Below, piece by piece: positions 10,284 to 26,604 of a stretch of 64,000 bases of DNA. The stretch spans positions 248,001-312,000 of the forward strand of contig NZ_VXDC01000006.1 in NCBI RefSeq assembly GCF_008711285.1, written 5' to 3'. Within the stretch, counting starts at the first letter, position 1. Each line of letters opens with the position of its first letter. The notes below the pieces were generated by a model. The model had not been told where the DNA came from. It worked only from the letters and a program-made list of their open reading frames with translations, and did no database searches. The translations under genes and the position numbers were made by a program. Source of the stretch: Roseibium aquae. GTDB taxonomy: Bacteria; Pseudomonadota; Alphaproteobacteria; Rhizobiales; Stappiaceae.

Positions 10284-10311
10284 TAGAGTTCAAATCTCTC
10301 CGGCAGCACCA
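10284..10311 (+). other. tRNA 3'-end-like fragment, possible attachment site
   Basis: The sequence reads as a T-arm (stem AGAG/CTCT around the loop TTCAAAT), then a 7-nt acceptor strand CGGCAGC, discriminator A and CCA. It resembles the 3' end of a threonine tRNA. No matching 5' half lies upstream; the preceding 80 bp are AT-rich. Such fragments mark the border of islands integrated into a tRNA gene. The partner copy and an integrase are not in this window, so the attachment-site reading is inference. Confidence 0.45.
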
Positions 10312-10617
10312 GTCTTCTCAATGAGTTACAGCAGAATCTGTCTCAGATCTCGTTCACACTGGATTGTGAGCGAACTCAGCTCCTCTCGCCAAGCGAGTGC
10401 ACGAAGCAAGCTTCGGCAAAGCTCAATCCCTGAGCTAAGGCAGCTCGCATATGAGTCTGATCCGGCTTTGTTCGGGTTTAAGAACACTGTTCGTATATAT
10501 AGGTGTTTCCGAAAGTTTTCCTGTTGAGAACATCTACATGTTGTAGCCTGTTCCATATCCTCAGCGCATGGTCGTATTGCTTCTGATTAAGAAGCTTCGA
10601 GCCATGAAAGGATATGG
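10312..10617. other. Intergenic stretch without a recognisable gene
   Basis: About 306 bp between the tRNA-like fragment and the next small gene. Its base composition is more AT-rich than the surroundings. I see no convincing frame and no named regulatory motif. It probably includes the promoter of the small gene at 10618. Confidence 0.4.
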
Positions 10618-10878
10618 ATGAAAAGAACTGAAGCGAAACCAATGCAGCTGGCTTTCAATTTCGGAGCTGCAAACGACAACGTACCACGTTCCCTTCCGGC
10701 AAATGACAACACATCGAAAGCGGAAAGCGTGGACGAATACGAGCTGGCGGAACTGCGCTGGACTGAAATCGGTGCACTAGCCCGCCAGCTCGAATATGTG
10801 GCCGATGGACCTCGGAATGATTCCACTCAACACGAGGCATGTCGGTTAGTCGAAAGCTTGTACGAATTGCTTGCCTGA
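10618..10878 (+). CDS. Small hypothetical protein with ANDN repeats
   Basis: An 86-residue protein of unknown function. The ATG follows an AAAGGA ribosome site by 7 nt. The N-terminal third is basic and low in complexity and contains two ANDN motifs (residues 19-22 and 29-32), a pattern I associate with short alphaproteobacterial proteins. The C-terminal half looks helical and acidic (DEYELAELRWTEIGALARQL). No signal peptide or membrane segment is present. Its neighbours are island debris, so it may be cargo. Confidence 0.5.
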   Translation: MKRTEAKPMQLAFNFGAANDNVPRSLPANDNTSKAESVDEYELAELRWTEIGALARQLEYVADGPRNDSTQHEACRLVESLYELLA

Positions 10879-10894
10879 GCGCAATGTTTTTTTA

Positions 10895-10931
10895 GCTCGG
10901 ATTTTCAGTTGTCTGCTGTTTTTATCCGAGC
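10895..10931. terminator. Hairpin after the small gene
   Basis: GCTCGGAT and ATCCGAGC form an 8-bp perfect stem over a 21-nt loop, starting 16 nt after the stop at 10878. There is no clear T-run after the stem on the plus strand, so terminator function is only suggested by position. Confidence 0.35.
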
Positions 10932-10947
10932 CACGTACAGTGCCCTT

Positions 10948-10977
10948 TGGCCCCGATCACGCAAATGGTTGGGGCCA
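10948..10977. terminator. Hairpin between convergent genes
   Basis: TGGCCCC and GGGGCCA form a perfect 7-bp stem over a 16-nt loop, 14 bp past the stop of the minus-strand fragment at 10992. It lacks a T-run. It may stabilise or terminate the convergent transcripts. Confidence 0.3.
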
Positions 10978-10991
10978 TGAGGATTTGGCAA

Positions 10992-11355
10992 TCACATGAC
11001 ACCCTTCATCCGCTCAATGACCGCCTGATAGTCTTCCTCAAGTTGCTTTGCTTTTGCCAGCTCTTGAGCAACGCGGGTTTCAACTAGGGGGTTGATCTTG
11101 GGGCGGCCGACCGGGTTCACCTGCCCCGAAAGCCTTGCCAGTTCTCGCGAAGCGTTGGCATTGCCCTGAGCTGCCGCCTTGGCCATAGCGCCTGCAATGC
11201 GGTCGTTTATGAGGGTGTTCCGCCGTTCATCCAGTTCCTGCAGATCTGCAAGACTGTCCTTCCAGTCAAAGAACCCATCCCAATCGCCGGCAAACTGGTC
11301 TCGAACAAAATCGGTGATGTCGAGCGTCTCGACGTAGGCCCGTCGCTTGTCTGTC
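10992..11355 (-). pseudogene. Unknown gene, 5' end cut by an IS3-family end
   Basis: About 120 C-terminal codons remain. The protein is polar and helical (DFVRDQFAGDWDGFFDWKD, then ERRNTLINDRIAGAM, a GRPKINPLV segment, and a lysine/glutamate-rich tail). I do not recognise the family. The frame runs into the terminal sequence of an IS3-family element at 11356 and continues only as noise. The original start is not present in the window, so the gene is truncated. Confidence 0.45.
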
Positions 11356-11500
11356 TGAACCGCCCCCCGTGTTTGCCGGAGGCTCCAACTTCTGAGAAAG
11401 TGGAGCCGATATGAGCAAAACAGCAAACAAGTTTTCGGTTGAAGCCCGTGAACGCGCGATCCGCATGGTGCTCGAGCATGAAGCCGAAAATCGCTCCTGG
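11356..11500 (+). mobile_element. IS3-family left end with transposase orfA start
   Basis: The segment starts TGAACCGCCCC, the usual end of IS3-family (IS51-group-like) elements. The typical leader with GGAGGCTCC and CTGAGAAAGTGGAGCC follows. From 11411 it encodes MSKTANKFSVEARERAIRMV, the conserved start of orfA. After about 30 codons the similarity stops near 11500; the rest of orfA, orfB and the other terminus are missing. It interrupts the minus-strand gene ending at 10992 and marks the junction between the accessory region and the capsule locus. Confidence 0.7.
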
Positions 11501-11975
11501 TTCCCCAGCCCCCGGTTTTCCTGCCCCCCCGCCTTCCTGCCGCCCAGGGCTTCCCCGCCCAGTGCCCATCCCACGGAAAGCCTGACCCCGGGGTCATGGG
11601 CCCTCGTGCCCGAAAAGTCAAAAAGCCCGCCCCCCGTGACGGATACGCGACAAGTCGAAAGGTCCTGCCGAGCGGCCTCCAAGGCCGGCAACTCTCATTC
11701 GCTCACAAAATCAAGAGCGGTGGAAGCTTCGGTCTTGGTGGCCGTCTTGCTCGTTGGACCCTCCCCAAACGCGGACGCGTGCGCAACTTCGACAAATTCG
11801 GCCATCGGTTTGCAAGGTGCGACTACAACGTAGCGGCAGTCAAAAAATCATGGTACGTGCATCGCCGACAAACTGGCCAAGCGCAGCCGATAGCTATATC
11901 TATGGGCAGCTTGGGGCTGACCGTGCCGTATACCCCACTCATGGCTTCGATGTTTTCTTCGCTTAAGGTTGTTCC
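11501..11975. other. Gene-poor stretch before rkpA
   Basis: About 475 bp with no convincing gene. Open frames that start in the IS3 remnant run on here, but their composition is proline- and serine-rich noise. The last part must contain the rkpA leader; I could not pick out a promoter by eye. An AAGG at 11966 lies 7 nt before the GTG start of rkpA. Confidence 0.4.
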
Positions 11976-14900
11976 GTGGCTTCCCTGACTTCTGATATCA
12001 ACATCCTTGGTTATTCCAATCGACTGCCGGGCGCGAATTCTCCCTCAGATTTCTGGTCGCTTCTTGAAACGGGGACCTGCGCCGTCACGCAAGTGACCCC
12101 GGATCGCTGGCCGCTCGCGCGCTTTGGAAACCCGAATGCGGCCGCCCCGGGCAAAGCTTACACATGGGCCGCTGGACAGCTCGACGACGTTTGGGGATTT
12201 GATCCATCTTTTTTCGGCATTTCTCCGCGCGAAACGCTGCAAATGGATCCTCAGCAGAGATTGCTGCTTCAGCTGGTTTGGGAAGCCCTGGAACACGCCA
12301 ATATCCGGCCGAGCGATCTGGCAGGGTCAAGCACCGGCGTTTATGTCGGCGCGTCGTCGCTGGACTACCATCACCGGTTCGTCAGCGATCCGGCCGCGGC
12401 CGACATGCAGTTCATGACCGGCAACACATTGTCGATCGTCTCGAACCGGATTTCCTATATCTACGACCTGCGCGGCCCGAGCTTCACGGTCGACACGGCG
12501 TGTTCGTCCTCGCTTGTCGCCCTTCACGAGGCCGTCTGCGCGCTTGAAAGCGGCGTGATCGATACGGCGATCGTCTGTGGCATCAGCCTGCTTCTCAGCC
12601 CGTTCGCCTTTGTCGGCTTCTCTCGGGCAACCATGTTGTCGCCCACCGGCCTATGCCAGGCGTTCGATGCCAAGGGGGACGGCTATGTGCGGTCAGAGGG
12701 GGGCGTTGTTCTGGTCCTGCAGGCCAACCGGGCAAAAAAATTGCCCGGCACGCGGGCCCATGCGCGGCTCGTGGCCAGCGGGATCAATGCGGATGGGCGC
12801 ACGGTCGGCTTGTCGCTCCCCTCGCCTTTTGCTCAAGCGGCTCTTCTACGCGAACTCTACGAAGACAAGGGCGTGGATCCCAGTCGGCTGGCCTTTGTCG
12901 AGGCGCATGGAACGGGAACCCGCGTCGGGGACCCAGCAGAGGCCGATGCCCTGGGCAAGGTGATCGGACAAAAACGCGCCGCGGCACTGCCAATCGGGTC
13001 GGTCAAGACGAATGTGGGCCATTTGGAGCCGGTCTCGGGGCTCGTCGGGGTTCTGAAAGCGATCTTGGCGCTGAAGCACGACCTGTTTCCGAAATCACTG
13101 CATTTCGACACGCCCAATCCGGACATCCCCTTCGACGAACTGAACCTGCAGGTGGCGAAGGAACCCGTCCACCTTGTCCGGGATGGCGCAGACCGGATCG
13201 CGGGCATCAACTCCTTCGGCTTTGGCGGCACGAACGCGCATGCCATCATCGCCGACGCGCCAGATGAAGGCCCGGCGGACCTGCCCGAGCCCCTCGGTCA
13301 ACCACTCTTGATTTCCGCACGCTCGGAAGAAGCGCTCAGATCGCTCGCCGGGCGGTATCGCGAGCAGCTGGCCTCGGCGGAGGGGGATCAGGCTGCCGCC
13401 GGCCTGGTGCTCACCGCCGCCCACGCGCGCGATCTGCTTGCAAAACGCATGGTCGTGCTCGGCGATACGGTCGCGGAACAATGCGCGGCTCTCGATTCAT
13501 TTCTGGCGGATCAACCCACGCCTGCCATCGTGTGCGGCGAGGCCGCCAGGGCCGAGGACAAGACGGCGTTCATCTTTTCCGGCAACGGATCGCAATGGGC
13601 CGGCATGGGCCAGGACGCGTACAAGACCGACATGCCGTTCCAGAAAGCCTTCGAGAAGGTCGACAAGATCTTCATGGGGATCGGTGGATGGTCTTTGCTG
13701 ACCATGCTGTTCGCGGAGGATCTGGAGACAGACATCGAACGGGCCGAGGTCGCGCAGCCACTTCTGTTCGCCATCCAGGTGGCGTTGGTGGAGAGCCTGC
13801 GCAGCCGGGGCATCGAGGCCGACGGTGTGGCCGGACACTCGGTCGGTGAGGTGGCCGCGGCCTGGTGTGCCGGCGCCCTCTCTCTGGATCACGCGGTCAA
13901 ACTGATCCACGCGCGCTCCAGTGGCCAGGAGGTCGTCCGCGATCTCGGGTCGATGGCCGCACTTCTTCTGCCGGCCGATCGCGCGCAAGCTGCGATCAAG
14001 GAAAGCGGCTTTCCGCAGCTTGAACTGGCCGCCATCAATTCGCCCCGCAGCGTGACTATTTCCGGGGCATCCGAAAGCCTGGAGGCTTTCGCGAAATATG
14101 CCCGGAAGAACAAGTGGGCCTTGCGCCGGCTGGGTCTTGCCTATCCGTTTCACAGCGCCCTTGTCGATCCGATCCGCGAACCTTTGCTGAACGCGCTTCA
14201 GGGCATCGAGGCCAAACAGGAACGGGTACCGTTCTATTCAACGGTGGATCCGGATGCCGCGCCGGTGTCTCTCGAGCCTGAATACTGGTGGCGCAACGTT
14301 CGTGAACCGGTCCGTTTCAGCGACGCCATCTCACGCATGGCTGCGGACGGGTTCGGTGTATTCGTGGAAATCGGTCCCAGGAGTGTCTTGGGCACCTACA
14401 TCAACGATGTGGTCCGCACGGACGGCAAGAAAGCCCAGGTTCTGGCCAGCTTGGAGCAAAAAAAGGCCGATAGGGACGAAACGCTGTCCCCGGTCGCCCG
14501 CGTGGCCGCGGCCATCCTCGCCCATGGTGGAAAAACGGATCTGGACCGGTTTGTCGGGGCCGCCCCGCAAACCTTCCGCGATCTGCCGCACTACCCCTGG
14601 CAGAATACGCCGTATAAGCAAGACCCGACGGAAGAACGCGTCGACTTCATGTTCGGCCAGACCTGGCCGCTGCTCGGTTTCCGGCTCCGCTCGGATGCGT
14701 CCGTGTGGTACAATCATATCGATGTGGCGAGCCACCCCTGGCTGGTCGACCACAAGGTCGAGGAGTCTGTTGTCTTCCCGGCCGCCGGGTTCTCCGAGAT
14801 GGCGCTGCGCGCCGTGCTCCGCTGGACCGGGCAGGATGCCGCCGAACTGCGGGACTTCGACATTTTCCGTCCCCTGGTGCTGGACGATGGCGAGGCATTC

Positions 14901-17900
14901 GAGACCCAGGTCAGGATTTCTCCCGATGACCGTGTGGTGGAAGTGTTTTCGCGCCGCCGTCTTGACGATAACGACTGGTCGCTCCACGCAAGAGGCCATT
15001 ATGTGACGCCGTCCACCCGGGGCGGCAACCCGTCACTGCCCGAGGATGAACGTGAGGCAGCCTCTCTCGAAAAAGACGCGCTTTACGCGATTACTCGGTC
15101 CTACGGTCTCAACTATGGCGACACCTTCCAGCGGGCCCGTTCGGTCGTCGCCCATGACCAGCGCCGGGCGACCGTAACGCTGGACACGCGGGTCTCCGCC
15201 TTGCAAACAGTGCCGATGGCGCTGTGCCCCAGCCTTGCGGACGCCGGGTTTCACGGCTTGTTCGCGCTGCTGGAAGGGATCGATAACATCCCTGAAAAGA
15301 CAAGCTTCCTGCCGATCCGTCTTGGTGCGTTCCGTCTCCTTCAGCCTGACGCCGCTCCTGAAACCGTCCGCATCGAAGTCACGAAGGCTTCCCCGCGTTC
15401 GGTTGAGGCGACCTTTGAATATATCGGCGCGGACGGGACCGTCATCGCCCGGCTGACAAAAGCGCGTTTCCGCGCCGTCAAATTGGGCCGGGACACCCGC
15501 CAGGACGAACTCGTCTATCATCAGGCCGCTGTCCTGTTGCCGGACGCCAATCGCCGGTCGCCAGTCGCCCATGCCCTGCCCGCAGGCTTCGACGGCTTTG
15601 CCGCCGGGCTTGGCCTGACCGATGAAACGCCTTCCGATCTGGACGAATCCAGCATCCTGCTCGAAGCACTGGGCCGCACCGTTGCCCATACCGCCCTTTG
15701 GTCTTTGGCCGACAACGGCATTTTCGACGTCACAGCCTTGATACGGACCAATGTGCTGCACGAAACGTCCGCCCCCCTGGCCCATGCCCTGGTCAACTGG
15801 CTTGCGGATGACGAGCTTGCGGTGACGCTTGAGGACGGCACGACACGGCTGGCCGATCCCGCCGAAGGCCCCTCGGCCCACGCCCTCATGCAGACCCTGT
15901 CTGTCGAGGGCGGGCGCCATATCGCGGAAGCCGCGTTGCTTGCCCGTCTCAAGAACGACTTGCCGGACATCCTCAGGACCGGTTTGCCGGCAACGGCATC
16001 CGAGTTCTATTCCGGCAGCCTGTTCGACGCCTATACCACCGCTTCACCAAGCGTGATGTCGCGGGTCTCCGGCCTCACCGATGCCGCCACCGGTCTGTTG
16101 AAGGCCTGGCCAAAGGGCAATCCGGCTCGGGTTTTGGTGGTCGGTTCCGGCGCGAGTTCCTTGTTGAAGGCGCTCGACCGGACATTGGACAGCACCCGCA
16201 TGCAGGTCTGTGTCACGGACCTGAGCGCAGCAGATGTCGGCCGAGCCGCACGGCTTTGGACCGGCAGCACGCTGACCAAATTCGTCGATCCGGACGGCGA
16301 AGCCCTGGCCGAACGCGGCCCGTTTGATCTGGTGATCTTCGCCCGCAGCCTGGCGGACTTGTCTTCGGAAAAACATCGCGAAATCCTCGCGCACCTGACC
16401 CCCGACGCGGGTCTTCTGACCTCCGAAGCGCTGGCGGCCCCTCTGACCGATCTGTTGCGTGGTATCGGCGCCGACTGGTGGAGCGAAACAGTTACGCCCG
16501 AGTTCCCGATTTCGCGGCAGAACCGCGACTGGGCTGCGGATCTGACCGCTTTGGGATACACCTCCGTGACCATGGTGGCGCTGGCAAGCCAAAGCGCGGA
16601 AGCCGACCTGATCTTCGCCCAGGCCGGAGAGCGGCCGCAAACTCGGGATGAAACCACGGAAGAAACGCCAGCGCGGCAACCAATCCTCATCCTGTGCGAT
16701 GAAAGCGGCGCGGAGCGGAAACTCGCCGACGGCCTTGCCGCCTGCCTGACCCGCGATGGGCAACCGGCGAGGCTTCTGGTCCCCGGTTCGCAGACCGCCG
16801 AACGGGCCGACGGCGTGTGGACAGTCGCTCTTTGCGCGGATCAAGCCGCCACAGATACGGATCCGACGTTCAAGAAGCTCACTGCGGCCGCGGGTGGCCA
16901 AATCGTCTATCTGCTCGGCGCCTACCGGCCTGAAGACGATGCGCTGGAGACGTTGGAGGCGCGCAGCGCGAACCTCATGGCCGTGGTCAAGGCGATCGGA
17001 TCGGATCCGGCCGCGCTCACAGTGATAGTTCCAGGCGGCGCGCAGGACATCATATCCGGGCAGAACCACCGTCCGGCCCAGACCGGGTTTTGGAACTTCG
17101 CCCGGGTTGCGATGAATGAGTATCCGGATGCAAATATCCGGATGATCGACGTCTCGCCAAATCTTGAACCCGGGATCGCGGCGGCCCGCCTTGCCGAGGA
17201 ACTGCAAACCCCGGGCGCGGAACGGGAGGTGGTTCTGGATGGCCAGAGCCGGGCGGGATTGCGCATTCTGCAAGGCGGGCTCCTGCCCGACACCGAGCTC
17301 TCCCAAGGCGCGGAACCGGCTCTTCGTCTGGAAATTCTCCGTCAAGGCGCCCTCGACCAGCTCCAGTGGCAGCCCGTTGCCCGGAATACCCCTGGTCCTC
17401 GCGATGTGGAAATATCGGTGGAGGCCAGCGGCCTGAACTTCCGCGATGTCATGTGGGCACTCGGTCTTTTGCCTGAAGAGGCGCTGGAAGATGGGTTCGC
17501 GGGACCAACGCTTGGAATGGAATGCTGTGGCACCGTCGTGTCCTGCGGCCCGGACGTGACCCGCTTCAAGCCGGGCGATCGGGTGATCACCTTCGCACCG
17601 GCCTGTTTCGCCAGCCATGTCACGGTTCATGAATCCGGCTGCGCGCCCATGCCGTCGACGGTGTCGTCGGAGGAAGCCGCCACGATTCCGGTCACCTTCC
17701 TGACCGCATATTATGCCCTGGTTCACCTCGCCCACCTGAGCGAAGGGGAAACCGTCCTCATCCACGGTGGTGCCGGGGGCGTTGGACTGGCCGCCCTTCA
17801 GATCGCCCAATGGCGGGGCGCCCGGATCATCGCAACCGCGGGTTCACCGGAGAAGCGGGCAACGCTCGACCTTCTTGGCGCGGATGTCGTTCTCGATTCC

Positions 17901-19580
17901 CGGTCTCTTGCCTTCGTCGACGAAGTCATGGACCTGACCGATGGCGAAGGCGTGGATGTGGTTTTGAACTCGCTGTTCGGCGAGGCGATGGAACGTAGCA
18001 TTGAAGTGCTCAAGCCCTTCGGCCGTTTCCTCGAGCTTGGCAAACGGGACTACTACGGCAATACCCGGATCGGTTTGCGCCCGTTCCGGCAGAACCTCAC
18101 TTATTTCGGCATCGACGCCGATCAGCTTCTGACCCGTCAGCCGAAACTTGCCGAAACACTGTTCGAGAAGCTTGTGGCCCTGTTTGAGGATCAGACCCTG
18201 TCGCCATTGCCCTACCGCGCTTTCGATGCGGAGGATGTGGTCGATGCGTTCCGCCTGATGCAGCAGGCGGGCCATATCGGAAAAATCGTACTCCGGCCGC
18301 CGCAGGTCAGCGAGCGTCCAGCTCCGGTCGCACAGGAGCTAACCCTCAACGGCAACGCGGTTTATATCGTGGCCGGCGGTTTCGGCGGGTTTGGCGCAGC
18401 TCTTCTCCACCGGCTGGTGGACAAGGGCGCCCGGAACATCGCTGTTCTGAGCCGCCGAGGCAGCACAAGCGACGAGGCGCAAACCGTCATCGGCGCGCTT
18501 GCGGAACGCGGAGCTGCCGTCACCGGATACCCTTGCGACATTACCGACCCCGCCGCTGTCACACAGACGCTGGACGAGATCCGGGCGGCCGGTCTGCCAA
18601 TCAAGGGTGTCTTCCACACCGCCATGGTTCTGGATGACCGCCTCATCACGAACCTGGATGCCCAGGCCCTTAGGCGGGTTATGGCCCCCAAGGTCCGTGG
18701 CGCGGAACTTCTCGACCGGCTGACAGCCGCTGACCCGCTCGACCATTTCGTCCTTTATTCCTCGGCCACGACGCTTGTGGGGAACCCCGGCCAAGCGAAT
18801 TACGTCGCCGCAAACGGATATCTGGAAGCCCTGGCGCGCAAGCGGCGGGCGGCGGGCAAACCCGGCCTTGCGGTTGCCTGGGGCGCCATTTCGGATGCCG
18901 GATATCTTGCCCGGAACGAAGACGTCAACGAGATGCTGTCCCGCAAACTCGGCCGTCATGCCCTGACCGCCCAGGAAGCTCTGGACGGCCTTGAACGTCT
19001 CATGACCCTGCCGACCACGGACCCGCGTCTAGCCTCCATCGGGTATGCCCGCATCGACTGGCAAGCCGCGTCCAAGGATCTGGCCCTCGTCGGAACCCCC
19101 CTCACGGACCTTTTGGGTCTCGGGTCCGGCGATGACGATGGCGGACCGGAAGGGATGATCGATCTGCATGCCTTGCTTGAGGGCATGGATCCCGTCACCG
19201 CCGCGCAAACCGTTGCCAAATTGCTCGCCGCGGAAATCGGCAAGATCCTCAGAATCGCGCCGGAAGAGATCGATCCGCACAAGCCGCTGTCCGAAATCGG
19301 TATGGATTCGCTGATGGCACTTGAACTGCGTATGAGCGCGGAAAGGCAGTTGGGCATAGATATCCCCTTGATGTCGCTCGCAAACGGTGCAACGCTGATG
19401 GATCTGTCAAGCAAGGTCGCCAATCGTGTTCTGGGTGGGGAGGGTGACTCCCGCCTGTCCGCGGATGCGCAGCAATTGGCCAATCAGCATGTGAACGGTG
19501 ACGACGCCGATAGCGAAAACCTGTCCGAGCTTGCGGAGAAAGTCGAAAGCAAGAGCCGAGAATTGGGATCCTTCCTGTGA
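11976..19580 (+). CDS. rkpA: RkpA-like reducing type I polyketide/fatty-acid synthase
   Basis: A 2534-residue single-module megasynthase. Order: ketosynthase (about 3-430, active Cys176 in DTACSSS), acyltransferase (about 530-830, Ser622 in GHSVGE; the YPFHS motif suggests malonyl), dehydratase (about 900-1160; His in VDHKV, Asp in ADAGFH), a methyltransferase-like region (about 1340-1540), enoylreductase (about 1785-2100, GGAGGVG), ketoreductase (about 2125-2320, GGFGGFG and YSSATTLVGNPGQANY) and acyl carrier domain (Ser2445 in GMDSLM). No thioesterase is present, so the chain must leave by another enzyme. In the methyltransferase region the SAM loop reads VVGSGAS, so it is probably inactive. 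Rhizobial RkpA is needed for K-antigen capsule. The GTG start overlaps no upstream gene; the stop overlaps rkpG as GTGA. Confidence 0.88.
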   Translation: MASLTSDINILGYSNRLPGANSPSDFWSLLETGTCAVTQVTPDRWPLARFGNPNAAAPGKAYTWAAGQLDDVWGFDPSFFGISPRETLQMDPQQRLLLQLVWEALEHANIRPSDLAGSSTGVYVGASSLDYHHRFVSDPAAADMQFMTGNTLSIVSNRISYIYDLRGPSFTVDTACSSSLVALHEAVCALESGVIDTAIVCGISLLLSPFAFVGFSRATMLSPTGLCQAFDAKGDGYVRSEGGVVLVLQANRAKKLPGTRAHARLVASGINADGRTVGLSLPSPFAQAALLRELYEDKGVDPSRLAFVEAHGTGTRVGDPAEADALGKVIGQKRAAALPIGSVKTNVGHLEPVSGLVGVLKAILALKHDLFPKSLHFDTPNPDIPFDELNLQVAKEPVHLVRDGADRIAGINSFGFGGTNAHAIIADAPDEGPADLPEPLGQPLLISARSEEALRSLAGRYREQLASAEGDQAAAGLVLTAAHARDLLAKRMVVLGDTVAEQCAALDSFLADQPTPAIVCGEAARAEDKTAFIFSGNGSQWAGMGQDAYKTDMPFQKAFEKVDKIFMGIGGWSLLTMLFAEDLETDIERAEVAQPLLFAIQVALVESLRSRGIEADGVAGHSVGEVAAAWCAGALSLDHAVKLIHARSSGQEVVRDLGSMAALLLPADRAQAAIKESGFPQLELAAINSPRSVTISGASESLEAFAKYARKNKWALRRLGLAYPFHSALVDPIREPLLNALQGIEAKQERVPFYSTVDPDAAPVSLEPEYWWRNVREPVRFSDAISRMAADGFGVFVEIGPRSVLGTYINDVVRTDGKKAQVLASLEQKKADRDETLSPVARVAAAILAHGGKTDLDRFVGAAPQTFRDLPHYPWQNTPYKQDPTEERVDFMFGQTWPLLGFRLRSDASVWYNHIDVASHPWLVDHKVEESVVFPAAGFSEMALRAVLRWTGQDAAELRDFDIFRPLVLDDGEAFETQVRISPDDRVVEVFSRRRLDDNDWSLHARGHYVTPSTRGGNPSLPEDEREAASLEKDALYAITRSYGLNYGDTFQRARSVVAHDQRRATVTLDTRVSALQTVPMALCPSLADAGFHGLFALLEGIDNIPEKTSFLPIRLGAFRLLQPDAAPETVRIEVTKASPRSVEATFEYIGADGTVIARLTKARFRAVKLGRDTRQDELVYHQAAVLLPDANRRSPVAHALPAGFDGFAAGLGLTDETPSDLDESSILLEALGRTVAHTALWSLADNGIFDVTALIRTNVLHETSAPLAHALVNWLADDELAVTLEDGTTRLADPAEGPSAHALMQTLSVEGGRHIAEAALLARLKNDLPDILRTGLPATASEFYSGSLFDAYTTASPSVMSRVSGLTDAATGLLKAWPKGNPARVLVVGSGASSLLKALDRTLDSTRMQVCVTDLSAADVGRAARLWTGSTLTKFVDPDGEALAERGPFDLVIFARSLADLSSEKHREILAHLTPDAGLLTSEALAAPLTDLLRGIGADWWSETVTPEFPISRQNRDWAADLTALGYTSVTMVALASQSAEADLIFAQAGERPQTRDETTEETPARQPILILCDESGAERKLADGLAACLTRDGQPARLLVPGSQTAERADGVWTVALCADQAATDTDPTFKKLTAAAGGQIVYLLGAYRPEDDALETLEARSANLMAVVKAIGSDPAALTVIVPGGAQDIISGQNHRPAQTGFWNFARVAMNEYPDANIRMIDVSPNLEPGIAAARLAEELQTPGAEREVVLDGQSRAGLRILQGGLLPDTELSQGAEPALRLEILRQGALDQLQWQPVARNTPGPRDVEISVEASGLNFRDVMWALGLLPEEALEDGFAGPTLGMECCGTVVSCGPDVTRFKPGDRVITFAPACFASHVTVHESGCAPMPSTVSSEEAATIPVTFLTAYYALVHLAHLSEGETVLIHGGAGGVGLAALQIAQWRGARIIATAGSPEKRATLDLLGADVVLDSRSLAFVDEVMDLTDGEGVDVVLNSLFGEAMERSIEVLKPFGRFLELGKRDYYGNTRIGLRPFRQNLTYFGIDADQLLTRQPKLAETLFEKLVALFEDQTLSPLPYRAFDAEDVVDAFRLMQQAGHIGKIVLRPPQVSERPAPVAQELTLNGNAVYIVAGGFGGFGAALLHRLVDKGARNIAVLSRRGSTSDEAQTVIGALAERGAAVTGYPCDITDPAAVTQTLDEIRAAGLPIKGVFHTAMVLDDRLITNLDAQALRRVMAPKVRGAELLDRLTAADPLDHFVLYSSATTLVGNPGQANYVAANGYLEALARKRRAAGKPGLAVAWGAISDAGYLARNEDVNEMLSRKLGRHALTAQEALDGLERLMTLPTTDPRLASIGYARIDWQAASKDLALVGTPLTDLLGLGSGDDDGGPEGMIDLHALLEGMDPVTAAQTVAKLLAAEIGKILRIAPEEIDPHKPLSEIGMDSLMALELRMSAERQLGIDIPLMSLANGATLMDLSSKVANRVLGGEGDSRLSADAQQLANQHVNGDDADSENLSELAEKVESKSRELGSFL

Positions 19581-20962
19581 CACAGAATGCGACCGGATCA
19601 AGACGCCTGGGCGGAGACGAACGCGCCCGCTTGATGGAAAATCTGAAGGCGGGACGGCGGACCGCCAGGGACCGGCAGCCGGTCGCCGCAGCGCAAAAAG
19701 CGGCGTCCAACAAACCAAAGGCTTTTGATTTCAAGAACCTGCCACAAGTGCAGCAGCTTCAGTTGCAACGGGCCGCAGCGGACATGATCGGGATCGAGAA
19801 CCCCTTCTTCCGCCCGCATGACGGCCTGGCGGCGGGCACCACTTTGATCGATGGCAAGCCGTACGACAATTTTGCGTCCTACAACTACATTGGCCTCAAC
19901 GGTCATCCGGATGTGAATGCCGCAGCGAAAAACGCGCTGGAAACCTTCGGCACCAGCGTGTCCGCCAGCCGCATCGTGGCCGGCGAACGCGCATTCCACG
20001 CGGAGCTCGAACAGGGCCTTGCCCGGATTCACGGTGTCGAATCAGCCGTTGTCATGGTTTCGGGGCACGCAACGAACGTGACCACCATCGGCCATCTGAT
20101 GAAAAAGGGCGATCTCGTTCTCACAGACACGCTCGTTCACAATTCCATCGCCGAGGGGGTCCGGTTATCGGGCGCGACACGCATCAATTTCCCGCATGAC
20201 GATCTCGATGCCTTGGAACAGCTGCTGATTTCCAATCGGCACAAGTTCGAGAACGTGCTGGTCATCGTCGAGGGTCTTTACTCCATGGACGGGGATTTCC
20301 CGGACCTCAAGCGGGTGATCAAGCTCAAGCAGGATTATGACGCCTGGTTGATGGTGGATGAGGCCCATTCGATCGGCGTTCTGGGCAAGACCGGACGGGG
20401 CATCGCGGAGCATTTCGGCATCGACCCCCAGTCGGTTGAGATCTGGATGGGAACCCTCAGCAAGACCTTCTCATCCTGCGGCGGCTACATTGCCGGGTCG
20501 AAAGTCCTTTGCGATTATCTTAAGGTCTCCGCGCCCGGATTTGTGTTTTCCGTCGGTCTGTCGCCAGCCCTTGCGGGCGCGGCCATCGCCTCGGTCAAGC
20601 TTCTCGAGCGCGAACCGGAGCGCGTTGCGCGGCTTCAGGCAAACGGGAAACATTTCCTTGAATACGCAAAGCAGGCCGGCCTCGATACCGGCCCGAGCCG
20701 TGGTTATGCGGTTGTTCCGGTGATCGTGGGAGAATCCGCGACCGCCGCGATCCTGTCCAACAAGCTCCTTGCGCGCGGGATCAATGCCCTTCCCATCATC
20801 TTTCCGGCCGTTCCCGAAAAGTCGGCGCGTATCCGCTATTTCATTACGAGCGAGCACACGTTCGAACAGATCGAGCGGGCCGTCGCAATCACCGCAGAAG
20901 AGCTTGCGAAGCTCCGCAAGGACGGCGGCGCTGTCGAACGGTTGTTGCAGGCGGCCAAATAA
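19577..20962 (+). CDS. rkpG: RkpG-like alpha-oxoamine synthase
   Basis: A 461-residue PLP enzyme of the family of serine palmitoyltransferase, AONS and 2-amino-3-ketobutyrate CoA ligase. These enzymes condense an amino acid with an acyl thioester, releasing CO2 and carrier. PLP lysine is Lys296 (TLSKTFSS); the cofactor aspartate lies in VDEAHSIGVLG. About 60 extra basic N-terminal residues precede the catalytic domain, which starts near FASYNYIGL (about 95-103). The GTG start overlaps the rkpA stop (GTGA), so both are translationally coupled. I infer that it offloads the RkpA chain from its carrier domain by condensation with an amino acid, replacing the missing thioesterase. Which amino acid is used cannot be read. 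Confidence 0.87.
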   Translation: MTQNATGSRRLGGDERARLMENLKAGRRTARDRQPVAAAQKAASNKPKAFDFKNLPQVQQLQLQRAAADMIGIENPFFRPHDGLAAGTTLIDGKPYDNFASYNYIGLNGHPDVNAAAKNALETFGTSVSASRIVAGERAFHAELEQGLARIHGVESAVVMVSGHATNVTTIGHLMKKGDLVLTDTLVHNSIAEGVRLSGATRINFPHDDLDALEQLLISNRHKFENVLVIVEGLYSMDGDFPDLKRVIKLKQDYDAWLMVDEAHSIGVLGKTGRGIAEHFGIDPQSVEIWMGTLSKTFSSCGGYIAGSKVLCDYLKVSAPGFVFSVGLSPALAGAAIASVKLLEREPERVARLQANGKHFLEYAKQAGLDTGPSRGYAVVPVIVGESATAAILSNKLLARGINALPIIFPAVPEKSARIRYFITSEHTFEQIERAVAITAEELAKLRKDGGAVERLLQAAK

Positions 20963-20977
20963 GGCCTCGATATCAGC

Positions 20978-20999
20978 GGGCGTTTCGAACAAAACGCCC
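20978..20999. terminator. Hairpin between rkpG and rkpH
   Basis: GGGCGTTT and AAAACGCCC pair over a short CGAAC loop, 16 nt after rkpG and in the 74-bp gap between convergent genes. The T and A tracts within the stem give a short U-run in either direction, so it could stop transcripts from both sides. Confidence 0.5.
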
Positions 21000-21036
21000 C
21001 ATGCGCTCGAGATTACATGAAGCGCCGGATCCCGTT

Positions 21037-21879
21037 TCAACGCTCCGGCAGATTTTTCTGCGCGTCTTCTTGCCTCCCCTCAGCTGGCCCGTAGCGCGGG
21101 TCCTGATCGATCTCGGCCGCAAAGCCATTCATGAACAGATCGCTCAACCGCGGTGGCAGGAGGTTTTGCAGGTATATCCCGGCGGCCAGCAGGAAAGGAA
21201 AGGCATGCAGGGTTTTTCGCTTCTCGATAGCGCGCCGCATGATCACCGCAGCCTTTTCAGCAGAGATTTCGAACGGTTTCGCCCCTTTGTGCCGCGCGGA
21301 CATCGGTGTCGTCACGAAGCCTGGACATAAGATCGTCACGTGGACCCCGGACGCCTTCAGCCAGCCGCGGATGGCGTGACCGTAGGCGATCAACGCAGCC
21401 TTGGTCGCGCTGTAAGTGGGCATGTCCGGCAAAGGGCGCAATCCGGCGAGAGATGCCACAAGCACGATCTGCCCGCGCCCGCGTGCGCGCATCCGATCCA
21501 CCAGAGCGGAGACTGTTGCGACAGTGCCCCGGTAGTTGATGTCGATCTGCCGCGCGATTTCCGCATCGCCCTCCCGGCTGCGGCCCGGCCCGAGGCCAGC
21601 GGTCACCCCCGCGTTGGCGATCAAGAGATCGACCGGATAGCGGTCGTCGAATTCTTCAAGGCAAGCCATGAGGGCGCGTTCGCTGCGCAGGTCAATCGCC
21701 GCGCATTCGCTCTCGCAGCCCATCGCCTGAAGATCGCCCGCGAGACGGGCAAGCTTGTCTTCATCACGGGCAATCAGAAGGAACCGGCGCCCCGGCTGGG
21801 CCAGCTCACGGGCAAGCGCGATGCCAATTCCCCCGCTCGCACCCGTCAGCACGATAACCCTCGGGGATGCATGTGCCAT
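21037..21879 (-). CDS. rkpH: RkpH-like short-chain dehydrogenase/reductase
   Basis: A 280-residue classical SDR. The cofactor loop TGASGGIG is at 13-20, NAG is in the central strand, and Ser and YSATK form the catalytic group (SLAGLRPLPDMPTYSATK). The C-terminal 60 residues include a hydrophobic stretch (FPFLLAAGIYLQNLL), which suggests membrane contact as in 3-ketodihydrosphingosine reductases. It lies tail-to-tail with rkpG, as an end member of the minus-strand capsule group. By analogy it would reduce the 3-keto group of the RkpG product. The rkpH name rests on the family and the neighbourhood, so function is inferred. Confidence 0.8.
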   Translation of the reverse strand: MAHASPRVIVLTGASGGIGIALARELAQPGRRFLLIARDEDKLARLAGDLQAMGCESECAAIDLRSERALMACLEEFDDRYPVDLLIANAGVTAGLGPGRSREGDAEIARQIDINYRGTVATVSALVDRMRARGRGQIVLVASLAGLRPLPDMPTYSATKAALIAYGHAIRGWLKASGVHVTILCPGFVTTPMSARHKGAKPFEISAEKAAVIMRRAIEKRKTLHAFPFLLAAGIYLQNLLPPRLSDLFMNGFAAEIDQDPRYGPAEGRQEDAQKNLPER

Positions 21880-22090: not shown

Positions 22091-23383
22091 CTAAAGAGGC
22101 ACCCCGATCCGCCGGGCGGGCTCAAGCCGCGGCGGGTCGGGGAGATATCCGCCCGGTTCGTTCAATGTCCGTGCGAGAATGCGTTCAACCATGTTCCGGG
22201 CGGCCACCGGCACGCCATCCTTGTTGTGGATGGAACCGCGCACCTGGATCGTGGCGGCAATGGCATTCAGGTAGGCCGCGCAAAGATCCATATCAGGCGG
22301 CTGGGGGGCATTCCAGAAGCCTGAAAGACCGCCTTGATGCGTCATGCCCTCGATATCGTAGTGCGCGGGAACAAGCGTCTTGACCGGTATGCCGTGGATC
22401 AGTGCGTCCAGCCCTGCGGTCGAATTCACCGTGACCACGCCATGGACATGCTGGAAAAGGGAATCCAGATGGCCACCATCGAGAAAATGCACGCGCTCCT
22501 TCACCCGGGCCTGATCCGCCGCGCTTGAAATCACACCGCCCCAACCCTCGACGCCGATATCGAGGGGATGGCTCTTCAAGATAAGATGACTTTGCGGTGG
22601 GGCATGGGCGGCGAAGTCCCGCACCACTTCGCCGATCACCTGCGAGAAACTCTGATAAGGGGAGTGGCGGCGAAGCTGAAAGTCGCCCTCCAGCTGAAGC
22701 GGAAGCAGAAAGATCGACGCGGCCTTGCCAACGACATCCCGAAGGATGGCGTCCGCCTGCCGGTCACGTTTGGCCTTGTTCAAGAGCCGCCAGCCACCGC
22801 GCAGATACTCGGGTACCGGATGATAGATCGTATGCCGCTGATAATGCGGATAGAGGACCTGACCGGCGACATTCGCAAGATTGTAGATGACATCAGGAAC
22901 GGTCTGAAGCCAGAAGGACGAAGGAAACGCCGGCGACCGGTCAACGGGGCCGCAATCCTCCGAAATCCGGCGGATTGCCGAAGGATCGCGGGGGAAATGA
23001 CTCACTGTCGAAAGGCCATTGCGTTCCAGTGTCATCCAGCCGGGACGGATCATCCCCAGTTCCGTGACGGCGACGTAAACCCCTCTGTCCCGGCCCTCGC
23101 CGATCGCAGCCCGGTGGTAGATCCGCTGATCGCCATGAAGCACCAGATCCGTGATCCGATGGTCGTCCATGAACGCCCCAACGAAGGCTCCGAAGTCCTG
23201 CGGGCGCCCCTTGAAGGAGGTGCACTCGGGTCCATGCCAATGGAGCCAATCCCCGGCGCAGATGTTGATCCGGAATGCTTCATGACCCATGGCCCTCACG
23301 AGGAGCCCCATCTGCCTGTAAAGGGGGGACAGGGGACCTTGCAGGAACAAGACCCTTCGGGTTTCTGGCCCCGTGTCAGCCAT
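22091..23383 (-). CDS. KpsS/RkpJ-like capsule polysaccharide protein, copy 1
   Basis: A 430-residue protein of the capsule-synthesis family of KpsS, KpsC and rhizobial RkpJ. KpsS and KpsC are cytoplasmic Kdo-transferases that build the linker between lipid anchor and capsule chain. Shared marks are an N-terminal VLFLQGP, RINICAGDWLHW, ERNGLSTVSHFPRDP, a central LKSHPLD and VNSTAGLDALIHGIPVKTL. The ATG at 23383 overlaps the previous gene's stop (ATGGCTGA), which favours it over the upstream in-frame start at 23437. It is clearly a paralogue of its neighbour, sharing most of these blocks. Which acceptor each uses is unknown. Confidence 0.82.
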   Translation of the reverse strand: MADTGPETRRVLFLQGPLSPLYRQMGLLVRAMGHEAFRINICAGDWLHWHGPECTSFKGRPQDFGAFVGAFMDDHRITDLVLHGDQRIYHRAAIGEGRDRGVYVAVTELGMIRPGWMTLERNGLSTVSHFPRDPSAIRRISEDCGPVDRSPAFPSSFWLQTVPDVIYNLANVAGQVLYPHYQRHTIYHPVPEYLRGGWRLLNKAKRDRQADAILRDVVGKAASIFLLPLQLEGDFQLRRHSPYQSFSQVIGEVVRDFAAHAPPQSHLILKSHPLDIGVEGWGGVISSAADQARVKERVHFLDGGHLDSLFQHVHGVVTVNSTAGLDALIHGIPVKTLVPAHYDIEGMTHQGGLSGFWNAPQPPDMDLCAAYLNAIAATIQVRGSIHNKDGVPVAARNMVERILARTLNEPGGYLPDPPRLEPARRIGVPL

Positions 23384-24776
23384 TCCAGGCCTTTGTCCAC
23401 AACTCGCGCTTGCCACGGCGGGCTTGCTGCTCCTCAAACGTCACCGTGATGCCATGCGAGCGGGCGCGGGCCAGACGCGGCGCAGACCGGGGCGCCGTGA
23501 ACGGGCCATTGACCGTGCCATCGGCGATACGCCGCGCCATGGCCTCGGCTCCGGCAAGGCGGCCTTCCGGGGTGTAAAAGCATCCTTTGACCTGGATCGT
23601 CGCGGCCAGAAGCCGTTCGAGATCCTCCACCAGATCCAAGTCCGGTGGCGTGGCCGCCCGCCAGAACTCATCGAGCGGCTTCTGGCAGGTCAGCCCCGGA
23701 ATATCATACAATGCGATGCCCAGCACCTTGGTTGGACAGGCAACCCGCAAGGCATGGATGCCGGTTGTGCTGTTGATCGTCAATGCACCCGATGCGTGGC
23801 GCAGCAGACGGTCGAGGTTTCCGCCATCGATCACATATATGCGTTTCTTCACCCCGTGCTTCTGTCCCAGAAGCCGCAGGATCTTGCGCCAGGGCTCCAT
23901 GCCATTGTCGAGCGGGTGAACCTTGAACACCAAGCGGGCCGAAGCCGGAGCGGAGCGGGCAAACGAGGCGATCACCTCTTCGGCGGCATCGGCAATATGC
24001 TCATATTGGGAATTGTAGCGAAGCTGATAGTCGCTCTGCAGTTGGAGCGGAAACACGTAATAGGGCAGACCAACCGAGATCACATCGTCGATCAGGTGCT
24101 CCGCGGTCCGGTTGCGGCTGCGCGACATGGCCAGGCGCGGGATATTGCTGAGATAATCGATCAGCGGATGATACAGCTTGTCCCGCTGGTACTTCGGATA
24201 GGCCAAAGCAAAAACCACGTTGGCCATGTTGAACGTGACTTCGTGAAACGCTTCGATCCCCCAGTCGAAAGGATAAAGGGGACGGCGATCGGGAGCCGGG
24301 AGGGCGGATGCTTCCTTGCGGATGATGTCCGGATCCTGCGGGAACAGCGAATGCGCCGACATGCCATTCCGCTCCACCGTGATCCAGTCCGGGCGCAAAT
24401 ACCCGAACTCGTAAGTTGTGCAGCGCAGCCCCAGATCCAGACCAACATCGAGCGCCGCCGAATGGTAGGGCAGTCGATCGGCGTAATACACGATATCGGT
24501 GACGCCCTTGTCGCGGCAGAACGCGGTCAGCCATTTCGGCCAGTCATCGAGACTGCCGCGGTAGGAGGTGGCGCGGTTGTCGTGCCAACTCAGCCAGTCT
24601 CCGGCGCAAAAGTTGATCCGCAGCGTCCGGTGGCCCAACCGCTCAAGCTGATCAGCGACACACCTGGCAAAGATATGCGGCGGCCCCTGAAGGAACAGAA
24701 CCGTTTTCGCCTCAGGTGCCCGTGCCATCAACATCACCCAATCCATCTGGCGGCTAGAGCCACCGCCAGAGTTCAC
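23376..24776 (-). CDS. KpsS/RkpJ-like capsule polysaccharide protein, copy 2
   Basis: The first of two tandem paralogues (up to 466 residues). Conserved blocks match its neighbour: VLFLQGP, LRINFCAGDWLSWH, VERNGMSAHSLFPQDP, VFKVHPLDNG, INSTTGIHALRVACPTKVLG. The N terminus is uncertain: in-frame starts at 24746 or 24728 (MARAPEAKTVLFLQG) fit the family better than 24776. Two adjacent members, as in KpsS plus KpsC, suggest sequential transfers onto the lipid. Sequence divergence between the copies is considerable, so this is not a recent duplication. It lies downstream of the export lipoprotein gene with a gap of about 160 bp. Confidence 0.8.
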   Translation of the reverse strand: MNSGGGSSRQMDWVMLMARAPEAKTVLFLQGPPHIFARCVADQLERLGHRTLRINFCAGDWLSWHDNRATSYRGSLDDWPKWLTAFCRDKGVTDIVYYADRLPYHSAALDVGLDLGLRCTTYEFGYLRPDWITVERNGMSAHSLFPQDPDIIRKEASALPAPDRRPLYPFDWGIEAFHEVTFNMANVVFALAYPKYQRDKLYHPLIDYLSNIPRLAMSRSRNRTAEHLIDDVISVGLPYYVFPLQLQSDYQLRYNSQYEHIADAAEEVIASFARSAPASARLVFKVHPLDNGMEPWRKILRLLGQKHGVKKRIYVIDGGNLDRLLRHASGALTINSTTGIHALRVACPTKVLGIALYDIPGLTCQKPLDEFWRAATPPDLDLVEDLERLLAATIQVKGCFYTPEGRLAGAEAMARRIADGTVNGPFTAPRSAPRLARARSHGITVTFEEQQARRGKRELWTKAWNG

Positions 24777-24936: not shown

Positions 24937-26067
24937 TTAGTCGAACAGGTTGCTGGCCGCCGTCGTATTGCTGATCACCGGAGCGATGATCTGCAGGAAC
25001 TTTCCGAGTTCTGCGGTCGGATGGTTCGCCACATAAAGGATGTCCTTATCGCGCAGTTCAAAGAACCGGGAAATAAAGAAACCTTTCGGATCCCGCAGGC
25101 TGAGCCGATACACAACGGGAACGGCGGAATGTCCTGCCAACCGGTCGGCCAGATCCGGCCGGAGACTGCGGATTAATGCGGTGTCTTCAAACCGGAACAA
25201 GAAGATCCCGGCAGCATCAGCCCTGTTATCGTTCAAACCACCAACGGTCGCCAACGCCTCGGCAAGGGTGACTGTTTGCGTCTTGAACGGCACCAGGGAA
25301 TTCGCCTTGACCGCACCGAACGCCGAGAACGTGCGAGGCCGGTGCGACAGCAGGATATTGTCGTTCGGCGCAATCAGGACGTTGTTCTCCGGATATTCGA
25401 TCAGGTGCTCCAGCCGGGTCGTTCCAGAGCGCGCGCCGCGCTTCAGTGTGACCACGGTCTCGTAGGTCGCATCGCGCGAGCCCCCGGCAATCGCGACCAG
25501 ATCGAGCAGGCGGGTCTGACGGATCGGAAGAGGGTAAACCCCCGGCTTCATGACATCGCCCACCACCACAGCGGTTGCGCTGTTCTTGTCCCGAAGGCTG
25601 ACGAGAACTTGCGGCTCCACCGCCTTCCCAACAAGCTTTTGCTGGATGGATTGGCGAAGACCCTCGATGCTTAATCCTGCGGCTCTGATGCGCCCCGCAT
25701 ACGGGATGAAGATGTATCCAGCCTCGTCAATCACCACCGGTATGGCGCTGACGCCTTCCTCCGTGCTGGAGAACAGGCCGTCTCGGGAGGCCTCCCAAAT
25801 CGAGACGGTCAGGGTGTCGCCGACACCCAGAACCGTGGTGCTGCCACCGCCGCCGACCGACCTGAATTGGTTGGCGAATGCGATTGGACGGTAATGCTGG
25901 ATGACCTCGATGTTCTCCGGGGACAGATCCACCATCGTGTAGCCGCCCGACAACGAGCCGTTTTCCACTTCATCAGAGGAAATGTTGATCGCACCGGGCC
26001 CGTCTCCTGGAAGCGCCGCACATCCGCTGAGTGCGGCTGCAAACAAGAGTATCGTCCAAAACTTCAT
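24937..26067 (-). CDS. Wza/KpsD-type polysaccharide export lipoprotein
   Basis: A 376-residue outer-membrane polysaccharide export protein. The ATG at 26067 gives a lipoprotein signal (MKFWTILLFAAALSGC, lipobox LSGC with Cys16); the in-frame start at 26184 would bury it. A polysaccharide-export domain follows (VLGVGDTLTVSIWEAS, then VVIDEAGYIFIPYAGRIRAAG), then SLBB-type repeats (VVVGDVMKPGVYPL; FSAFGAVKANSLVPF). The C terminus is hydrophobic and polar mixed, as in a membrane-spanning helix. It should form the export channel for the capsule made by this locus. No inner-membrane ABC exporter (KpsMT) is in the window. Confidence 0.85.
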   Translation of the reverse strand: MKFWTILLFAAALSGCAALPGDGPGAINISSDEVENGSLSGGYTMVDLSPENIEVIQHYRPIAFANQFRSVGGGGSTTVLGVGDTLTVSIWEASRDGLFSSTEEGVSAIPVVIDEAGYIFIPYAGRIRAAGLSIEGLRQSIQQKLVGKAVEPQVLVSLRDKNSATAVVVGDVMKPGVYPLPIRQTRLLDLVAIAGGSRDATYETVVTLKRGARSGTTRLEHLIEYPENNVLIAPNDNILLSHRPRTFSAFGAVKANSLVPFKTQTVTLAEALATVGGLNDNRADAAGIFLFRFEDTALIRSLRPDLADRLAGHSAVPVVYRLSLRDPKGFFISRFFELRDKDILYVANHPTAELGKFLQIIAPVISNTTAASNLFD

Positions 26068-26604
26068 ACTGCCATCCGATCGCTTCGACGCGCGAGTGTT
26101 AGCATGGTCTCCCGGCAACTGTCCAAGAAACCCAAACCTGTTACCCGACGACCCCCGGTCCATGTTGCGCGAGGGCAACACCAAAGACCCGCAAAGCCTG
26201 AAGAAGTCCTTAAACCAGCTTCATGTAAAGTCAAAATGATCAATGAAACATTGATGTTAACATTTCAAGCGGAGCGCGGCCTCACGCCGGGAACCGGAAT
26301 GCGGCCAGTGTGCCCAAAGTGCCTGCGCGAGGAACGGCAGGCGCTCTGAAGTCAAACGTCGCCCTGTTGCCGTGCGGGCGATTCTGCAGCCGGCAAACTG
26401 CGCGCGGCAGGAATCCCGTGCCCGGATGGAAGACTGGCGCAGAGATGACGCCTGTTGAGTGTGGCGGGCGGAAAACCCGGCCCGGAGGCGGTGGGCGGCG
26501 AATGTGGAAAAAAGAAAGACGCTTTCGGCCTTTTCCCGGCATCCAAGCTCTGGCAATAGACGGTCATCCAGCCCCTTCTTCCCACCCACCAGATAGGACA
26601 TTCC
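26068..26604. other. Divergent intergenic region before folD
   Basis: About 537 bp between the export lipoprotein gene and folD. It must contain promoters in both directions. The part around 26235-26270 is AT-rich. I looked for a folate-type riboswitch before folD and could not support one. No open frame here looks coding. Confidence 0.4.

Follow-up and report, generated by a model that had tools for sequence, protein, structure and literature searches.

Sphinganines of C24, C26 and C28, and most likely phosphoglycerol sphingolipids as well, have been described in Pseudomonas fluorescens MYb115 (Peters et al. 2025, PMC12134224). According to that paper, SgaA is an iterative type I polyketide synthase (PKS), SgaB is an alpha-oxoamine synthase (AOS) that condenses acyl-CoA with L-serine and hardly accepts alanine or glycine, and SgaC, a nearby short-chain dehydrogenase/reductase (SDR), is the proposed keto-reductase; 6,101 homologous clusters were counted. 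In Sinorhizobium, papers citing the original reports state that the rkp-1 genes are involved in capsular polysaccharide (KPS) and that rkp-1 mutants are KPS-deficient, and rkpA together with rkpGHIJ was proposed in passages of PMC3557214 and PMC4881576 to make and modify a lipophilic molecule that serves KPS as carrier or anchor. The wcbPQRT genes of Cobetia are described as a capsule lipid biosynthesis operon, with WcbQ annotated as a lipoteichoic acid (LTA) synthase (PMC11766843, in the part concerning these genes). Since both roles are already in print, the idea of a capsule lipid anchor made by rkp genes is not new. The stretch analyzed here (the window) comprises 64,000 nucleotides of Roseibium aquae, contig NZ_VXDC01000006.1, positions 248,001 to 312,000, and contains rkpA, rkpG, rkpH and KpsS-like genes together in one locus of the rkp-1/wcb kind. 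The product of RkpA/WcbR is not named in the open-licence PMC literature searched, where the first reports cited date from 1993 and 1997, and within the same literature, preprints excluded, no paper was found that joins the rkp/wcb capsule genes with PKS-made sphingolipids.

Comparison of this locus with its relatives indicates that it very likely makes a sphingoid lipid by PKS/AOS chemistry. The full reading, in which this chemistry is combined with a role of the lipid as the capsule acceptor, has in our estimate a probability of about 0.6. For this locus, we infer an SgaAB-like reaction for the RkpA-RkpG pair, a reductase function for RkpH and a capsule-acceptor role for the resulting lipid. 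The proposed pathway would include the following steps: (i) RkpA would assemble, on its own carrier domain, an acyl chain that is long and mostly saturated, (ii) RkpG would free this chain by decarboxylative condensation with L-serine, yielding 3-ketosphinganine, (iii) RkpH would reduce 3-ketosphinganine to sphinganine, (iv) sphinganine, bare here and bearing phosphoglycerol in relatives with a GacH-like transferase, would act as the membrane lipid from which the KpsS-like transferases begin the capsule chain, and (v) export of the capsule would proceed through the Wza-type protein and a KpsE-KpsT-KpsE-KpsM set encoded elsewhere in the genome. The features of the locus, in window coordinates, are as follows.

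11976..19580, plus strand: rkpA (2534 residues), single-module fully reducing type I PKS, KS-AT-DH-(degenerate MT)-ER-KR-ACP, no thioesterase
11991..13382, plus strand: RkpA KS domain with C-terminal extension, residues 6-469 (Pfam, motifs)
13569..14471, plus strand: RkpA AT domain, residues 532-832, GHSVG, YPFHS (Pfam, motifs)
14667..15482, plus strand: RkpA DH domain, residues 898-1169 (Pfam, motifs)
16131..16394, plus strand: RkpA methyltransferase-like remnant, residues 1386-1473, under the Pfam cut-off (Pfam)
17394..18293, plus strand: RkpA ER domain, residues 1807-2106 (Pfam)
18357..18893, plus strand: RkpA KR domain, residues 2128-2306 (Pfam)
19224..19409, plus strand: RkpA ACP, residues 2417-2478, GMDSL (Pfam, motifs)
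19577..20962, plus strand: rkpG (461 residues), pyridoxal phosphate (PLP)-dependent AOS of the RkpG/SgaB-type clade, Lys296 codon at 20462-20464 (profiles, alignment, tree)
21037..21879, minus strand: rkpH (280 residues), SDR, putative 3-ketosphinganine reductase (profile matches)
22091..23437, minus strand: KpsS-like Capsule_synth protein 1 (PF05159)
23376..24776, minus strand: KpsS-like Capsule_synth protein 2 (PF05159)
24937..26184, minus strand: Wza/KpsD-type outer-membrane polysaccharide export protein (profile matches)

The original prediction, made from the letters of the window, named a reducing single-module PKS, an oxoamine synthase and an SDR at 11976-21879, and the open reading frames (ORFs) and Pfam matches bear this out. 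In RkpA, the KS, AT, DH, ER, KR and ACP domains all score above the Pfam cut-offs, and all catalytic motifs sought were found (DTACSSS, HGTGT, NVGH, GHSVG, HPWL, DAGFH, two GGxGGxG and GMDSL). The methyltransferase domain looks degenerate, because its match (20.4 bits) falls under the cut-off of 27. As predicted, a carrier domain is present and no thioesterase was found by Pfam in RkpA, where just 56 residues follow the ACP match. Thus, RkpA is a reducing single-module PKS with an ACP and without a thioesterase that directly adjoins an AOS: the GTG start of rkpG shares 4 nucleotides with the rkpA stop, exactly the overlap that had been pointed out, and the identical overlap occurs in 37 of 70 testable loci. 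The sponge PKS Swf was rejected as a relative; PMC3908369, in its passage on this point, places it apart from WcbR/RkpA.

RkpG falls into the clade of the PKS-linked AOSs of Pseudomonas. In a tree of 76 AOS rows, a group of 60 rows with support 100/99 includes the window RkpG, 30 PKS-linked rows, 5 Pseudomonas rows (MYb115 SgaB itself not among them), 17 other relatives and 7 second copies, and the rows outside this group are 7 canonical serine palmitoyltransferases (SPTs), 3 KBL, 5 BioF and 1 5-aminolevulinate synthase (ALAS); the tree is midpoint-rooted, its deepest splits are weak, and L194_BIOF and L002 form long branches. The motifs SYNYxG, GTSVSASR, HNS, SCGGY and SVG are common to the Pseudomonas AOSs and the window RkpG, and are missing from the SPT, BioF, KBL and ALAS consensus. 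The predicted PLP lysine, Lys296, is part of GTLSK; an alignment of 14 sequences shows no variation at this residue or at H188, D261, H264, R418 and R420. Because clade and active-site motifs agree, there is good evidence that RkpG would catalyze the same reaction as the Pseudomonas AOSs.

Two other assignments of RkpG were rejected. An identity as canonical SPT is contradicted by the tree placement and by the family cut-offs, none of which is exceeded (296 of 640, 267 of 500 and 209 of 670 bits for the NCBIfam SPT models). For BioF, KBL or ALAS, the best raw model, bioF, stays under its cut-off, and the genome has a separate 5-aminolevulinate synthase (601 bits, cut-off 339). The latter is the sole other AOS match in the window's genome, so that RkpG is the one candidate there for sphingoid chemistry. 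In viral contigs, four stretches matched a pattern, and none of them encodes an RkpG relative.

The association of the PKS with the AOS was further analyzed across relatives. Homologs of RkpG at E<=1e-100 were found in 12 of 289 genomes of the class and 81 of 297 genomes of the order (the window's genome included in both), and in 8 of 11 other genomes sampled from the family. From the order, 40 of the 90 RkpG places outside the window's own genome were chosen by hand, not at random. Where RkpG scores at least 394 bits, RkpA-type ER and KR domains lie upstream in 32 of 32 loci, with KS-AT in 31 and the ACP tail in 31; one of these loci, L135, is cut by a contig end. The 8 loci with RkpG scores of at most 349 bits (44-48% identity) have no RkpA-type PKS, although single weak domain matches occur in three. 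Thus, the PKS-AOS pairing is not due to chance (32 of 32 vs 0 of 8 in this set). A second set, the 80 named loci, represents the best 80 of at least 584 RkpG relatives and was divided into 40 reducing-PKS loci, with at least three RkpA domains and an ER of at least 300 bits, and 40 others. The others include L097, which has a reducing PKS with all five domains (ER 272); L037 contains a partial PKS only, and in L064, L077, L086, L091 and L093 a contig end lies inside or near the PKS. The loci are related, so the counts given here are not independent and P values overstate independence.

The PKS-free second copies of the order set (L138-L145), whose AOS is 44-48% identical to RkpG, all have an RkpH-type SDR in the stretch, with a weak match in L144. 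One of them, L141 (6997-13564), also encodes a myo-inositol-1-phosphate synthase, a DUF4833 protein, a class V aminotransferase and a thiamine pyrophosphate enzyme, and resembles a locus for an inositol or aminoethylphosphonate sphingolipid. AOSs of the RkpG clade were also observed in Planctomycetes, Myxococcota, a cyanobacterium and an actinomycete. The eleven loci concerned (L061, L062, L063, L072, L073, L074, L085, L087, L096, L099 and L100) all contain an AMP-ligase-type protein, which in L074 has a PP-binding domain too, and six of the eleven have no RkpA match at all; this protein is perhaps an alternative acyl supply for the AOS clade.

For RkpH, the expectation of an SDR stood, and that of a hydrophobic C-terminal segment held only in part: the stretch is modest, with a best 19-residue mean hydropathy of 1.27, and demonstrates no membrane segment. 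The RkpH-type SDRs form two subtypes in the alignment, one with the window, its family relative, Reyranella, Marinobacterium, Pseudomonas and Bordetella proteins and the other with the Ensifer protein and that of the second-copy locus L141; the profile model used for RkpH pools both. Against two Pseudomonas SDRs, the window RkpH showed identities of 37% and 40%, values from which no substrate can be read. Within the family, an RkpH-type SDR lies beside rkpG in the window and in two relatives with a single RkpG-type match; in relatives with two such matches, it was found at rkpG in 0 of 6 and at the second copy in 5 of the 5 fetched. The SDR thus accompanies the AOS in this family, which fits 3-ketosphinganine as the common substrate. 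A PDB search for the specificity of RkpH gave no assignment; the Ensifer RkpH matches TSC10 (8jat) at 6e-17 among many SDRs.

The original prediction had also placed KpsS-like transferases and a Wza-type channel beside the trio, and profile matches confirm them: after rkpH follow two KpsS-like genes (253 and 241 bits to PF05159) and then the Wza/KpsD-type gene, all on the minus strand. Apart from these two KpsS-like genes, the genome has no PF05159 place, and KpsC, a longer protein with several PF05159 stretches, was not found there; single-sequence searches with the KpsS-like proteins yielded no solved structure at an E value of 0.01 or lower. A KpsE-KpsT-KpsE-KpsM set lies on another contig beside dTDP-sugar-type genes. 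Together with the KpsS-like and outer-membrane export genes of the window, it gives the genome the components of an ABC-exported (KpsSC-type) capsule system; this set (G000:C4, about 52000-72000, L204) has two KpsE-like proteins.

Capsule genes are linked to the reducing PKS beyond the window. Among the named loci, at least one of KpsS, Wza, KpsM and KpsE lies in the flanks of 27 of 40 reducing-PKS loci vs 3 of 40 others (22 of 30 vs 2 of 21 for loci of at least 19 kb); KpsS alone occurs at 19 vs 3 and the RkpH-type SDR at 19 vs 5 of 40. In the order set, capsule genes were found at 20 of 32 rkpAG stretches vs 1 of 8 second-copy stretches, and KpsS and Wza genes lie near rkpG in all 8 same-family relatives carrying rkpG. 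The profile seeds came partly from the same loci; re-seeding (KpsS from the window and Pseudomonas, the transferase discussed below from Pseudomonas only) gave identical counts.

Some neighbors of the AOS could act on the amine of the lipid. An LpxC-like deacetylase gene lies between PKS and AOS in six Burkholderia-type loci (L055, L064, L076, L078, L081 and L083), a GNAT gene follows the AOS in five of these six, and a formyltransferase-domain gene is located directly 3' of the AOS in L039 and L044; amine editing of the lipid is possible. As evidence, formyltransferase or GNAT neighbors were rejected, being too few (7 of 40 reducing-PKS loci vs 2 of 40 others).

Another component found in a subset of loci is a PF00884 membrane protein of about 500-570 residues. 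In Ensifer (L048), it is encoded between rkpH and a KpsS-like gene and presumably corresponds by position to rkpI, and in Burkholderia-type loci a PF00884 membrane protein is encoded just upstream of the PKS. In profile comparison with the PDB, the protein at the rkpI position of these relatives matches solved phosphoglycerol transferases, with GacH first (7e-35), followed by LTA primase (4e-18) and LTA synthase (2e-10). Such a transferase was observed at 22 of 40 reducing-PKS loci vs 0 of 40 others, and four of five other rkpAG-carrying genomes have matches to the RkpI-type model. The window's genome has two PF00884 genes (L114, L115), which were rejected as RkpI, having no match to this model. 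With a GacH-like transferase, the finished lipid of many relatives may resemble lyso-phosphatidylglycerol (lyso-PG). The start of the E. coli K5 capsule is described in PMC7694667, where this step is treated, as the addition of Kdo by KpsS to (lyso-)PG. Sphinganine phosphoglycerol is therefore chemically attractive as an acceptor, and this lyso-PG look-alike could serve the capsule.

The Pseudomonas counterparts combine several of these components. An RkpG relative is present in 8 of 199 genomes from the genus of Pseudomonas sp. S37, in 7 of them at 53-56% identity; these 7 were examined, and G627 (43%) was left out. The phosphoglycerol transferase is present in 6 of the 7 genomes and in 5 of the 6 fetched 20-kb regions (L185-L187, L189 and L190; in L185 only a shorter frame matches). 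KpsS, the RkpH-type SDR and the transferase all adjoin rkpAG in four of the six regions (L186, L187, L189 and L190), and in S37, where KpsS and the SDR likewise lie beside the transferase, they are found on other contigs than rkpAG. KpsC-like proteins of 673-723 residues with 2-4 PF05159 stretches occur in L186, L189 and S37. Counting onward from rkpG in L186, the SDR gene comes fifth; if locus tags are numbered in fives, sgaC (RS19775) lies just as far from sgaB (RS19800). The words "capsul", "RkpG" and "WcbR" do not occur in the main text of PMC12134224. If the MYb115 cluster is of the same kind, it would be a capsule-lipid cluster, and its phosphoglycerol sphingolipids would be the lyso-PG look-alike.

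Several observations weigh against the proposed reading. RkpG stays under every NCBIfam cut-off (best, bioF, 351 of 426 bits) and outside the canonical SPT clade, and RkpH has its best match, PRK07024, under the cut-off and a sequence that does not reveal the SDR substrate. Three of the 11 other sampled family genomes have no RkpG, and the Pseudomonas region L188 has rkpAG with none of the KpsS, SDR and transferase neighbors within 20 kb. The RkpI-type transferase was not found by profile search in the window's genome and was seen in just 2 of 32 fetched order loci, which weighs against its generality; thus, the lipid here would either stay bare or be completed in some other way, and loci of this kind do not always include the transferase. 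Enzymes of the LtaS type act outside the membrane, and by homology the RkpI-position transferase should have its catalytic domain in the periplasm, whereas KpsS acts at the cytoplasmic side, so that a flip of the lipid or another order of steps would be needed. The KPS of S. meliloti Rm1021 reportedly has a phospholipid anchor, to judge from the title of a cited paper. For Cobetia, PMC11766843 states that WcbQ decorates the glycan with glycerol phosphate, a group that the glycan structure does contain.

The capsule role is also the point at which a different explanation enters. The original prediction had proposed that the lipid may be the capsule anchor, in place of the phosphatidylglycerol anchor of E. 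coli; the linkage to capsule genes and the printed involvement of rkp-1 in KPS speak for such a role, and the anchor step itself is our inference. The sphingoid lipid could instead be a free membrane or signalling sphingolipid, the capsule genes being mere neighbors with a phosphatidylglycerol acceptor of their own. P. fluorescens has free sphinganines and probable phosphoglycerol sphingolipids (PMC12134224, main text), and no capsule gene was seen in the flanks of 13 of 40 reducing-PKS loci (8 of the 30 of at least 19 kb) or of 12 of 32 rkpAG stretches of the order set; both facts agree with a free lipid and count against a capsule acceptor. We nevertheless consider a free lipid rather unlikely given the KPS deficiency of rkp-1 mutants cited above, the 27 of 40 vs 3 of 40 linkage and the presence of KpsS and KpsC-like genes in the Pseudomonas clusters too.

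Other alternatives concern the chemistry. RkpG might accept alanine or glycine instead, in which case the same logic would yield an aminoketone with a different head, of the 1-deoxy or nor-sphingoid type. AOS families do differ in amino acid specificity, and fumonisin synthesis uses alanine. This option seems improbable, since the active-site motifs of RkpG are those of the Pseudomonas AOSs and PfSgaB is described as nearly serine-exclusive (PMC12134224, main text). Still less credible is the older, fatty-acid-synthase-like reading of the genes, in which RkpA makes a plain fatty acid and RkpG or another enzyme simply acylates a carrier with it. The view of rkpA and rkpGHIJ as lipophilic carrier genes, printed in the passages of PMC3557214 and PMC4881576 cited above, would accommodate it, but both the PLP lysine and the remaining AOS residues are retained in RkpG, and the condensation is performed by an AOS that is linked to a PKS in Pseudomonas (PMC12134224). 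The latter work also supports the earlier proposal that the PKS chain is released by the AOS and reduced to an amino-alcohol lipid, as the MYb115 trio type makes sphinganines.

The locus is flanked by arsenite oxidase genes and moeA upstream and by folD, an Omp85 protein gene and TamB downstream. Directly before it, at 5078-9398 on the plus strand, lie genes for a Rieske small-subunit-like protein, the arsenite oxidase large subunit (TIGR02693, 1095 bits) and moeA. Between moeA and rkpA (10001-12000), the G+C content falls to 0.535, and the ORFs tried at 10992-11988 had no Pfam match. An ORF at 26257-27666 on the minus strand was rejected as a head-group enzyme candidate; it is antisense to folD (26605-27516, plus strand).

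As a tentative generalization, which we would not yet favor over its negation, rkp/wcb ABC-exported capsules across Proteobacteria (rhizobia, Burkholderia-type, Bordetella and Pseudomonas) might start on PKS-made sphinganine and not on phosphatidylglycerol. Many lineages would then add phosphoglycerol by a GacH-like enzyme, forming sphinganine-1-phosphoglycerol, a lyso-PG look-alike usable by Kdo transferases, and the "secondary metabolite" sphingolipids of P. fluorescens would be capsule-anchor intermediates. The joining of two known kinds of system, PKS-made sphingolipids and rkp/wcb capsule loci, is the interesting part of this analysis. If the product is a sphingoid base, bacterial sphingolipids gain a structural role as capsule anchors, and many of the homologous clusters counted in PMC12134224 could be capsule-lipid loci. 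The rkp genes also matter for surface polysaccharides in symbiosis.

Comparison with the known systems reveals both common and distinguishing features of the window locus. With SgaABC, it shares an iterative PKS, an adjacent AOS and an SDR a few genes away, and RkpG has the same AOS clade and motifs as SgaB, if the Pseudomonas AOSs of L186-L191 stand for SgaB. The sga genes are described as a secondary-metabolite cluster (PMC12134224, main text), whereas in the window the trio is accompanied by a Wza gene and two KpsS-like genes, and a phosphoglycerol transferase is absent. The S. meliloti rkp-1 locus has the same gene set of PKS, AOS, SDR and KpsS-like protein. It differs in the strand of rkpH, which is opposite in the window, and the Ensifer locus (L048) has a GacH/LtaS-like transferase at the rkpI position, absent from the window, and an RkpH of the other SDR subtype, 34% identical to that of the window. 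In the wcb loci, WcbR is the PKS homolog of RkpA, and we take WcbP to be the SDR and WcbT the AOS; in contrast to the window, LpxC-like and GNAT genes flank the AOS in Burkholderia-type loci. The fungal fumonisin (Fum1/Fum8/Fum13) and sphingofungin pathways are likened by pathway logic, not by sequence: a reducing PKS, release by an AOS and a ketoreductase. These fungal pathways use alanine or aminomalonate donors. Fum13 and SphF are named as KDSR homologs in the main text of PMC12134224. The canonical bacterial SPT (NF047599), which in Rhodobacteria works with a specialised free ACP (PMC9386255, in the part on this enzyme), belongs to the same AOS family and reaction type as RkpG, but forms a separate group in the tree and has the motifs HAS and TAS where RkpG has HNS and SVG.

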